A stretch of DNA of 64,000 bases, from assembly GCF_040436405.1 (NCBI RefSeq), contig NZ_AP031575.1:1368501-1432500 (forward strand). Direction: 5' to 3'. Below the pieces are notes generated by a model, which saw only the letters and a program-made list of their open reading frames with translations, did not search any database and had not been told where the DNA came from. Source of the DNA: Marinomonas sp. THO17 (GTDB lineage Bacteria > Pseudomonadota > Gammaproteobacteria > Pseudomonadales > Marinomonadaceae). The position numbers and the translations under genes are program-made. How positions within the stretch are numbered: the first letter of the stretch is position 1; each line of letters opens with the position of its first letter. Shown piece after piece: positions 20,170 to 46,806 of this stretch.

Positions 20170-20457
20170 ATGACATTACATCAGATAAATCAATTAGCTT
20201 ATCCAGGTGATACTGAATCACTTTGGCAACAAAGTCTTGGTCATGGTGATGCCATCATTTTCATTGAAGAAGCCTGTTTACGCTTACAGCAAATGGATAC
20301 GAACTGGTTGCAAAAATTAACGGCACAATCTATCCATTTGTATTATTTGCACAAAGATGCGTTGGCTTATGGCATTCAGCCCAAATGGGGTAAGGCCCTA
20401 TCAGATACAGAGTGGGTTGAATTGACTTTCTCTGCCAATAAACACGTCAGCTGGTAA
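20170..20457 (+). CDS. tusB: Sulfur relay protein TusB (DsrH-like)
   Basis: 95 residues from the ATG at 20170, two bases after the tusC stop; the frame is open further upstream but that part overlaps tusC. MTLHQINQLAYP and LGHGDAIIFIEEACL fit DsrH/TusB. Completes the TusBCD complex. Confidence 0.92.
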   Translation: MTLHQINQLAYPGDTESLWQQSLGHGDAIIFIEEACLRLQQMDTNWLQKLTAQSIHLYYLHKDALAYGIQPKWGKALSDTEWVELTFSANKHVSW

Positions 20458-44277: not shown

Positions 44278-44760
44278 ATGTTACCCAAACTCAATACCCT
44301 GCTTTATGCCTGTGATTTAGAGACTCATACACAGTCCGCAATTGAACTGGTGTTCAGCCTAGCACTTACTCATCAGGCTAAAGTCATTTTTATGCATGTT
44401 ATGGAACCCTTAAATCCACAAGCTGCTACTATGATACATAACTACATCAATGATGATGTATTGGAAAGCATGCGAAAAGAAGCGAAAGAGCAGGTGCAAA
44501 ACCGTTTGGACGATGCTCTACAAGGCTTTCTTACGCAATATCAAGATTCCGTAAAACAGCTGACTTATGCACCTGAAACCCTCATTGTGAGTGGTTCGCC
44601 AGCAGACTCCATTCAGCAAATTGCCAAACAGCATCAAGCCGACCTCATCATTATGAACAGTCGAACACACAGTACCCTTGGACAAATGTTGCTTGGCTCC
44701 ACCGCCAATAAGGTCATTCACTCAAGTGACATTCCCGTATTGGTTGTGCCCATCAAATAA
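44278..44760 (+). CDS. Universal stress protein, UspA family
   Basis: 160 residues, one Usp domain. Strong GGAGG before the ATG. LNTLLYACDLETHTQSAIEL opens the fold; VVSGSPADSIQQ-like and the ATP-binding G-QMLLGSTANKVIHSSDIPVL (G-2x-G-9x-S/T) close it, so it is likely an ATP-binding type. Usp proteins respond to starvation and oxidative stress. Its immediate neighbours are a Fur-box gene and a LexA-box gene. Confidence 0.9.
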   Translation: MLPKLNTLLYACDLETHTQSAIELVFSLALTHQAKVIFMHVMEPLNPQAATMIHNYINDDVLESMRKEAKEQVQNRLDDALQGFLTQYQDSVKQLTYAPETLIVSGSPADSIQQIAKQHQADLIIMNSRTHSTLGQMLLGSTANKVIHSSDIPVLVVPIK

Positions 44761-44797
44761 ATCAACTCTGGTGTTAATGAAAACACTTGGTTACACT

Positions 44798-44817
44798 TAC
44801 TGTATATATAAACAGTA
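44798..44817. promoter_or_regulatory. LexA (SOS) box touching the topoisomerase III start
   Basis: TACTGTATATATAAACAGTA matches the E. coli LexA consensus TACTGTATATATATACAGTA at 19 of 20 positions. It lies 9 bases before the ATG at 44827 and is embedded in a longer 15-bp inverted repeat (44789-44803 with 44812-44826). Confidence 0.8.
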
Positions 44818-44826
44818 AGTGTGACC

Positions 44827-46806
44827 ATGATTCTTTATATTGCCGAAAAACCCAGTTTAGCTCGTGCCATAGCAGCGGCGTTTTCTGGCTCCCAAAAAAA
44901 GCAAGAAGGTTGTATCTGGTTAGCCAATGGAGATTGTATTAGCTGGTGCATAGGACATCTGCTTGAACAAGCCGAACCACACATTTACAACCCTGCGTTT
45001 AAATCTTGGCAATTGGATCATTTGCCTATCATTCCTGAGGAGTGGCTATGGCAAGAGAAAAGTAACACTAAAAAACAACTTAGCATCCTCAAAAAGCTTA
45101 TTAAACAAGCAGACCAACTGGTTCATGCCGGAGATCCGGACAGAGAAGGACAATTGCTGGTCGATGAGGTGTTGCATTACTGCAAAGTACCGGCACAAAA
45201 GCTACGCGACACGCAACGCTTGTTGATCAGTGATCTCACGCCAAATGCTGTGAAAAAAGCACTCCAACAAATACGCTCCAATAGAGAATTCTCTGCCTTA
45301 TCCCGTTCAGCGTTAGCACGCGCCAGAGCCGATTGGCTATTTGGCCTTAACATGACACGTGCTTACACCATTCGAGGCCGTCAGGCAGGTTATCAAGGGG
45401 TTTTATCCATAGGTCGAGTACAGACACCAGTGCTGGGGTTGGTTGCCAATCGTGACAAAGAAAGAGAAGACTTCATACCCAAAGACTTTTACCAAGTATG
45501 GGCACAACTCATCACGCCAGAACAACAAATTTTTCGTGCCAAATGGTTACCCAGTGAGGCTTGTCGCCCGCACATGGATGAAGAAGGTCGGGTATTAAAT
45601 CGCGCCTTGGCAGAAAATGTTGCAACACGCATTAGTAACCAAGCTGCGCTGGTCATCTCATCGGATTACCAACAGAAAAAACAAGCAGCGCCATTACCTT
45701 ATAATTTATCGGCACTGCAAATTGATGCAGCTAAAATATATGGCATGTCAGCACAACAGGTCTTAGACATTTGTCAGGCCTTGTACGAAAAACATCAAAT
45801 AATCACCTATCCAAGGTCCGATTGTCGATATTTACCCAGTTTGCAGCACCATGAAGCCAAAAGCATTATTCAAGCACTTTCAGGCGTCTCAGAGGAATTA
45901 GCAAAAGGGACTGCTCATGCAAACCCGGCTTTAAAAAGTAAAGCCTGGAATGATAAAAAAGTTACTGCTCACCATGCCATCATACCTACATCACAAGCTC
46001 ACAAAGCCAGTGCACTTAGTAAAGCTGAGGGACAAGTTTTTGGCTTGATCGCGCGTCAATATTTGATGCAATTCTATTCTGACTACCAATACCTAGCGAG
46101 CACTATTCGTGTGCAAATTGCTGGAGGAATATTTGAGGCCAAAGGTAACACTCCCATCGCGGAAGGGTGGCGCGCTTTATTGCCAACCAAGAAAAAATCT
46201 GATCAGGACGAGGAACAAGATCAGCTACCACAATTGGTCACTGGGGACCAAGCTTGGTGTCAACAAGGTATTATTTTAGATAAGGTCACCACACCGCCCG
46301 CCGCTTTTACTGACGCGACTCTTTTGGCGGCCATGACAGGCATCAATCGATTTGTTGCTGACAAAAACATTAAAGCCATTTTGAAAGATACGGATGGTTT
46401 GGGTACGGAAGCGACCAGAGCTGGCATTATAGAACTTTTATTCAAACGCGGATTTTTACAACGTCAAGGCAAACAAATTCACGCTAGCATAACAGGTCGA
46501 GCCTTTGCTGATGCGCTACCTGAACAATTAATCACGCCCGACATGACAGCAAAATGGGAAGCAAGACTCAATGCAATGAGTTTAGGTGAGGCCAAATATC
46601 AGGACTTTATGACCGCGCTGACTGGCAATTTGTCTGAGCTGTTAACTCTGTCACAACAATTATCCAGCCAGACCCTGCAAAACTTACCCGCACCGAAAAA
46701 GAGCCCGTTTAAAAAACGCAGGTACAAATCCAATGCAGGGAAAAACAAACGCGCTACCGAAACAAGCAGCAAGACGGCTAAAAAACGCAATAAGAGCAAA
46801 GCTTAA
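44827..46806 (+). CDS. topB: DNA topoisomerase III (type IA)
   Basis: About 659 residues from the ATG at 44827; the GTG six bases earlier is an alternative. Toprim domain (IAEKPSLARAIAAAF; AGDPDREGQLLVDEV), RADWLFGLNMTRAYT, the active-site Tyr in TYPRSDCRYLP near residue 328, and DGLGTEATRAGIIELLFKRG. No zinc ribbons; a Lys/Arg-rich tail (KKSPFKKRRYKSNAGKNKR) replaces them, as in other TopB. It decatenates DNA and removes precatenanes and recombination intermediates. The LexA box at its start predicts SOS control, which E. coli topB is not known to have. Confidence 0.93.
   Translation: MILYIAEKPSLARAIAAAFSGSQKKQEGCIWLANGDCISWCIGHLLEQAEPHIYNPAFKSWQLDHLPIIPEEWLWQEKSNTKKQLSILKKLIKQADQLVHAGDPDREGQLLVDEVLHYCKVPAQKLRDTQRLLISDLTPNAVKKALQQIRSNREFSALSRSALARARADWLFGLNMTRAYTIRGRQAGYQGVLSIGRVQTPVLGLVANRDKEREDFIPKDFYQVWAQLITPEQQIFRAKWLPSEACRPHMDEEGRVLNRALAENVATRISNQAALVISSDYQQKKQAAPLPYNLSALQIDAAKIYGMSAQQVLDICQALYEKHQIITYPRSDCRYLPSLQHHEAKSIIQALSGVSEELAKGTAHANPALKSKAWNDKKVTAHHAIIPTSQAHKASALSKAEGQVFGLIARQYLMQFYSDYQYLASTIRVQIAGGIFEAKGNTPIAEGWRALLPTKKKSDQDEEQDQLPQLVTGDQAWCQQGIILDKVTTPPAAFTDATLLAAMTGINRFVADKNIKAILKDTDGLGTEATRAGIIELLFKRGFLQRQGKQIHASITGRAFADALPEQLITPDMTAKWEARLNAMSLGEAKYQDFMTALTGNLSELLTLSQQLSSQTLQNLPAPKKSPFKKRRYKSNAGKNKRATETSSKTAKKRNKSKA

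Follow-up and report, generated by a model that had tools for sequence, protein, structure and literature searches.

The topB gene for DNA topoisomerase III of this Marinomonas genome was found to carry a LexA (SOS) box that is real and, judging from sequence comparison, very likely works. An inverted repeat that runs up to the topB start codon is centred on this box. LexA control of topB would extend a finding known from Vibrio and Shewanella. The hairpin around the box did not figure in the earlier note on this DNA; as a conserved structure abutting the start codon, it is the new part of this work and is well supported as a pattern in the sequences compared. The window means the whole 64-kb stretch of DNA that was analysed, and the features of its topB region are as follows.

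44278..44760, forward strand: universal-stress-protein-like gene, ending 66 nt before the topB ATG; Usp models matched it weakly, all below cut-off.
44789..44803, forward strand: left arm GGTTACACTTACTGT of the inverted repeat (16 pairs when 44788 is included).
44798..44817, forward strand: LexA (SOS) box TACTGTATATATAAACAGTA, with the core motif common to recA, umuDC, dinB, yebG and lexA.
44804..44811, forward strand: 8-nt loop ATATATAA, which is the spacer of the LexA box, with a putative -10-like TATATA/TATAAA.
44812..44826, forward strand: right arm ACAGTAAGTGTGACC, its last base lying immediately before the ATG.
44827..46806, forward strand: topB, DNA topoisomerase III, 659 aa, assigned by curated family models.

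The 20-mer TACTGTATATATAAACAGTA was located on the forward strand at exactly the position given in the earlier note, and it differed at a single base (position 14) from TACTGTATATATATACAGTA, the E. coli LexA consensus. The distance of 9 bp between the box and the topB ATG (44827) that had been claimed was confirmed, and so was the identity of the ORF, which scored 728.5 bits with TIGR01056 (cut-off 515.75) and 837.1 with NF005829 (cut-off 597). The longest topB ORF opens at GTG 44821, and the relatives share ATG 44827 as start; a topB search of named records returned 17 loci, 15 of them from Marinomonas. When both strands of the window were searched for TACTGTATATATAAACAGTA with up to three mismatches, the topB site was the single match, with 0.01 expected by chance. 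The looser core CTGT-N8-ACAG was present at two places in the window (the second at 20274–20289) where 0.78 were expected, and is thus unconvincing on its own, whereas the full 20-mer is convincing.

In the whole genome (3.92 Mb, single contig), a search that allowed up to three mismatches placed the 20-mer at 10 distinct sites and the reversed-pattern control at one. The neighbours of these places include topB, a PA0069-type radical SAM gene, dinB, umuDC, an integron-type integrase, recA and yebG, as assigned by ORF reading and partly by family models, and the LexA core of the PA0069-family gene is identical to that of topB. Two more boxes lie between lexA and an ORF read as dinG, and one lies before an ORF read as ruvC. 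The earlier note would have been contradicted by a missing lexA or by a different motif at the known targets. It was observed that lexA scored above the family cut-off in all 48 genomes of the genus (243.2 bits in G000, cut-off 110.95), and that the boxes at recA, umuDC, dinB, yebG and lexA/dinG read CTGT-N8-ACAG. The SOS genes of the same genome, including the ruvC region, share the operator core with topB. In the expected mode of action, LexA bound over the topB promoter would keep topB low, and DNA damage would release it through RecA-stimulated LexA cleavage, as for recA, umuDC, dinB and yebG of the same genome.

Several other arrangements were noticed while LexA sites were collected. Tandem LexA-like boxes (L020, L084; G000:C1:800953-800988) precede a 194-aa ORF without Pfam match, and a LexA-like box at L022 separates an XRE/S24 repressor-like gene from a short ORF whose first residues, by reading, resemble CsrA. 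A LexA box at L025 precedes a gene of the Phage_integrase family, by reading the integrase of a chromosomal integron; integron integrases are known to be under SOS control (PMC3323433). In addition, recA is split in G006, G025, G036, G040 and G045 into an N-terminal piece (approximately residues 1–69) and a C-terminal piece (from residue 63) that lie apart. An extra recA copy with ~78–80% identity is present in G006, G025, G036 and G040, and the copies among the matches listed for G045 were all partial. These sequences suggest an element that integrated in recA and brought its own recA.

A topB match was found in 48 of 48 genus genomes, and the box kept at least seven of the eight core bases in 37 of them, comprising 26 with CTGT-N8-ACAG, eight ending in CCAG and three ending in ACAT. 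For the genus as a whole, the orthologous topB promoters therefore do not lack the box, as they would have done had the earlier note been wrong on this point. A degenerate CTGT-N8-CCAT with six of the eight core bases is present in eight genomes, which counts against LexA control, as do the remaining three of the 48, in which the box is split by an insertion, with both junctions read in one alone. The gene itself is in three pieces, one of them with stops, in G023:C20, and G004:C18 has a second topB match that is 37% identical.

Outside the genus, 60 topB hits were taken, which were mostly the better-scoring ones, as some were passed over because of stops or contig ends and the lower-scoring rest was left out. 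In this set, a box with at least seven of eight core bases was found upstream of 34 genes (2.6 of 60 on average in letter shuffles), 32 with an added filter on the whole 20-mer and 19 with all eight core bases; the other 26 upstreams were without a box at the 7/8 threshold, which likewise counts against LexA control. The 34 boxes suggest that the link between LexA and topB is widespread in the order. In the accessible parts of the respective papers, LexA bound the topB promoter of Vibrio parahaemolyticus in EMSA (PMC3323433), topB of V. cholerae (VC2043) is tabulated with a value of 4.8 as part of the extended SOS regulon (PMC5963079), and in a lexA mutant of Shewanella piezotolerans WP3 expression was increased for a gene that appears in print as “topA (DNA topoisomerase III)” (PMC4471891). 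As far as these parts go, the likeness to Marinomonas lies in a topoisomerase III gene with a LexA-bound promoter (V. parahaemolyticus) or a listing in the SOS regulon (V. cholerae), and in LexA-dependent expression of such a gene in S. piezotolerans; those of the Vibrio reports make no mention of a long inverted repeat that reaches the start codon, and that of the S. piezotolerans report does not describe the operator. Thus, the LexA interpretation of the earlier note was supported for the genus as a whole, and its view of the box as specific to this lineage was not supported, given the Vibrio and Shewanella reports and the boxes of the other genera.

A reading of the 20-mer as a chance match, with topB outside LexA control, is hardly credible in the face of the window expectation of 0.01, the conservation of the box in the genus and the order and the LexA binding in Vibrio; chance as the origin of the box was rejected on that expectation and the whole-genome control counts. 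The box, the regulon motif and their conservation were observed, and from them we infer LexA binding and damage induction in this genome. It is highly probable that the 20-mer is the LexA operator of topB and that topB is under LexA control.

A 40-bp inverted repeat (44788–44827) with 16 pairs and an 8-nt loop is centred on the LexA box and ends at the ATG. The predicted RNA fold of 44761–44870 had z = -4.85 relative to shuffles. When the 44 ORFs of at least 150 aa in the window were scored for stems ending within five bases of the start codon, topB scored 35 and the next best 17. The Shine-Dalgarno pairing of topB was -1.0 kcal/mol, and the median for these 44 ORFs, topB included, was -4.2. 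No sigma-70-type site or -35/-10 pair was detected at topB by consensus scan. No published description of a hairpin at the LexA box or topB was found in the literature searched, which was mostly without subscription papers.

Across the genus, 39 of 48 genomes have a stem that abuts the topB ATG and was matched by 0/200 shuffles, and one further genome has a stem matched by 2/200. No significant abutting stem was found in the other eight, which are G006, G013, G047 and G045, all with insertions, and G010, G016, G024 and G034. Where present, the stem ends 0–2 nt before the ATG although the position of the LexA core shifts. The arms vary but stay paired: the commonest left arm, ATACACTTACTG, was counted in 22 of 48 genomes and goes with right arms like CAGTAAGTGTAT, whereas the pair is GGTTACACTTACTGT/ACAGTAAGTGTGACC in the window genome and GTATACACTTTACTG/CAGTAAAGTGTATAC or AAACTACTGTATATAT/ATATATACAGTAGTTT in others of the genus. 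In seven genomes the stem, of the GGATGCACAAA type, is off-centre and encloses a degenerate LexA site, which ends in CCAT in six of them and in ACAT in one. In this group, 98.7% of the cells were paired, two pairs were changed on both sides, and five G.U cells were counted vs one A.C cell, the latter at the innermost pair; the loop varies between 28 and 34 nt and the stem remains paired. As judged from these alignments, the stem in the seven genomes is tied to the ATG and not to the LexA core.

The covariation of the arms was evaluated on alignments of distinct sequences only. The main-type topB alignment had 14 rows, as four of 18 distinct rows were excluded for stem register (G003, G023, G036, G042) and another 15 genomes had already been left out because of insertions or of off-centre or absent stems. 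It was 94.4% paired vs 90.9% in shuffles and had two pairs changed on both sides, a count that was unexceptional (186/500 shuffles), and the covariation score was exceptional (1/500). The Marinomonas PA0069-family gene (NF033668) likewise has its LexA box centred in an inverted repeat that reaches close to the ATG, with arms that are very different between species and unrelated to those of topB. At PA0069, 80.0% of the cells were paired vs 65.3% in shuffles, seven of ten outer pairs were changed on both sides (a count equalled by 63/500 shuffles), and the covariation score was 0.339 vs 0.138 in shuffles, reached by 0/500; the dinB control gave 0.221 vs 0.209 (162/500). With dinB as the control, compensatory change appears to hold the topB and PA0069 stems, a pattern that template switching could mimic. 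PA0069 is a LexA target in Pseudomonas aeruginosa, and LexA boxes were found at 27 of 28 other-genus PA0069 copies (the 28 best hits recovered as loci). No paper joining PA0069 and LexA was found in the literature searched, mostly without subscription papers.

Furthermore, the pairing of the flanks of the box was compared within and across genomes, with p values that are optimistic because shuffles and permutations ignore relatedness: it was 5.43 vs 3.78 of 8 for topB (p = 0.0006), 5.90 vs 4.60 of 8 for PA0069 in the genus (p = 0.0002), 3.19 vs 2.48 for PA0069 outside the genus (p = 0.0012) and 6.04 vs 5.45 for yebG (p = 0.0002). The recA and dinB boxes of same-genus genomes serve as the control for relatedness, and no difference was seen there (4.48 vs 4.40 and 2.00 vs 2.06, respectively), so that these boxes, unlike that of topB, have no covarying arms. 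G013 was excluded from the comparison for PA0069 and yebG, and the recA, dinB, yebG and lexA comparisons used the best 30 of 48 loci. At yebG (L121–L150), the AT-rich arms covary between species and the Shine-Dalgarno lies outside the stem; the neighbour was divergent in all six loci checked of 30, neighbour orientation having been read at six yebG and six dinB loci. At topB of other genera, long arms were not significant (30 unique flanks, p = 0.15–0.25).

These observations led us to a tentative proposal, which we hold at somewhat less than an even chance, that the LexA operator has two jobs. As DNA it would be the SOS repressor site, and in RNA running in from upstream its arms would fold over the start codon, so that topB and PA0069 would be translated only from an SOS promoter inside the repeat; compensatory change would preserve the stem, also in genomes with a degenerate LexA core. 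RNA entering from the upstream uspA-like gene would contain both arms, fold, hide the start region devoid of Shine-Dalgarno and stay untranslated, while a LexA-controlled promoter would start the RNA inside the repeat and give an mRNA without the left arm and with an open start. The covarying arms and the difference in predicted accessibility were observed, and from these we infer the translation block and a transcription start inside the repeat, the position of which was assumed since the consensus scan found no promoter. The same logic is known from IS10/Tn10 and from T4 late-gene messages, in which run-in RNA folds over the start site and RNA from the own promoter is open. The logic predicted at topB would be alike, and the setting is different, being a transposon end or a phage gene in those cases and a LexA operator in Marinomonas.

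The predicted cost of opening the region from -15 to +6 had a median of 17.2 kcal/mol for run-in RNA vs 3.5 kcal/mol for an assumed start in the spacer at topB (n = 44, without G006, G013, G045 and G047, which have insertions), and of 14.7 vs 5.4 kcal/mol at PA0069 (n = 20). The latter set came from 24 loci, as G013 and G016 were not entered, G009 had no in-frame ATG and one more was lost, and its scripted starts look wrong in G027 (too far downstream) and G033 (ATG inside the arm). Unlike topB, the dinB (7.0 vs 5.3, n = 20), yebG (9.3 vs 7.4, n = 29) and lexA (3.4 vs 2.4, n = 30) genes showed little predicted occlusion of the start codon, and other-genus topB gave 8.3 vs 5.9 (n = 29); the filters were passed by 20 of 30 dinB loci and 29 of 60 other-genus topB. 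Codirectional uspA-like genes lie 61–108 nt upstream of topB in 38 of 48 genomes, a count for which spurious ORFs called in some genomes were handled by a motif recheck, plus reading for seven genomes. In one genome, G034, the neighbour reads as divergent, the stem is absent and the LexA core is intact. The predicted occlusion of the start by the stem, the codirectional upstream gene and G034 together fit a stem that silences run-in RNA. G010, G016 and G024 keep the codirectional uspA-like gene, yet have no significant abutting stem. The PA0069 arms are kept where the neighbour reads divergent (G040, G039, G044), which weakens read-through as the sole reason for the arms, and the covarying arms of yebG with its divergent neighbour are unexplained by the occlusion model. 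An RNA stem is expected to tolerate G.U and not A.C; in unique flanks (G006, G013, G045 and G047 excluded for topB, G013 for PA0069 and yebG) the G.U and A.C counts were 9 vs 6 for topB, 5 vs 7 for PA0069 and 4 vs 5 for yebG. The stemless dinB gave 10 vs 1, which indicates that this strand test is biased by base composition, and overall it was unsupportive of RNA-level selection.

Mobile elements were also seen in these palindromes. An IS1595-family element (L008:1450-2477, also L041), with its transposase at L008:1488-2435 (PF12762), lies exactly in the 8-bp spacer of a topB LexA box and is flanked on each side by ATATATAA. Its right junction recurs at topB in G006 and G047 and, as right junction alone, at PA0069 in G013. 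Both junctions were found in a LexA-like palindrome in G002, and L365 and L360 are further loci of the element. The sequences suggest that this element may target SOS-box palindromes, in a sample that is biased because the junction search pattern held ATATAT. In G045 (L036), the hairpin is broken by an insertion of ~140 bases that separates the LexA box from the topB ATG.

A serious rival to start-codon occlusion is that the arms are a mutational by-product without function, the palindromic LexA core seeding template switching in replication so that the arms are made to match without being of use. According to two papers, template switching generates and preserves perfect stems and multibase compensatory changes, so that stems can be made or mended by mutation alone (PMC8794818), and it homogenises arms and inverts spacers (PMC8604942). 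Such a process would also cover yebG, the arms of which covary though blocking makes no sense there, and the PA0069 loop occurs in both orientations (ATATATAA and TTATATAT), which spacer inversion could produce, although two base changes would suffice. It does not readily account for the recA and dinB boxes, which contain the same seed in the genomes of the genus without any matching of their arms, or for a topB stem that holds its end at the ATG despite a moved LexA core and stays paired when off-centre around a varying loop. We regard this origin as quite possible, though less likely than not.

Less probable again is that the long palindrome works as DNA, with its flanks increasing the affinity for LexA, as the site of another regulator that is symmetric, or as an extruded cruciform. 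The symmetric extension at three LexA sites (topB, PA0069, yebG), where G.T and A.C mismatches are about equally common, is in line with such a role, and so is the IS1595-type element inside the 8-bp centre of three such sites (one seen at one junction only), which points to the DNA centre as a target. However, the arms differ between genes and species, so that no fixed operator would be read, and the dinB and recA sites are without covarying arms. We consider it quite improbable that the hairpin is the intrinsic terminator of the upstream gene and shares the LexA box by chance. A loose scan marked 44788–44827 as terminator-like, but one such site was found where 0.5 were expected by chance, and TTTTT follows several PA0069 stems, whereas after the topB stem (through 44827) comes TGATTCTTTA, with no proper T tract. 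With six of 16 pairs being G-C and this tail, the GC-rich stem and immediate T tract of an intrinsic terminator were not found at topB.

These results together suggest that topB belongs to the SOS regulon well beyond Vibrio, with boxes in many genera of the order, and this wide occurrence favours an old place for damage-induced decatenation or junction processing in the SOS response. The stems at topB and PA0069 offer a test case for distinguishing selected stems from by-products of template switching, in which the recA and dinB boxes are built-in controls. If start-codon occlusion is true, an SOS operator would double as a translational insulator and give very tight silence to a gene lying closely downstream of another.
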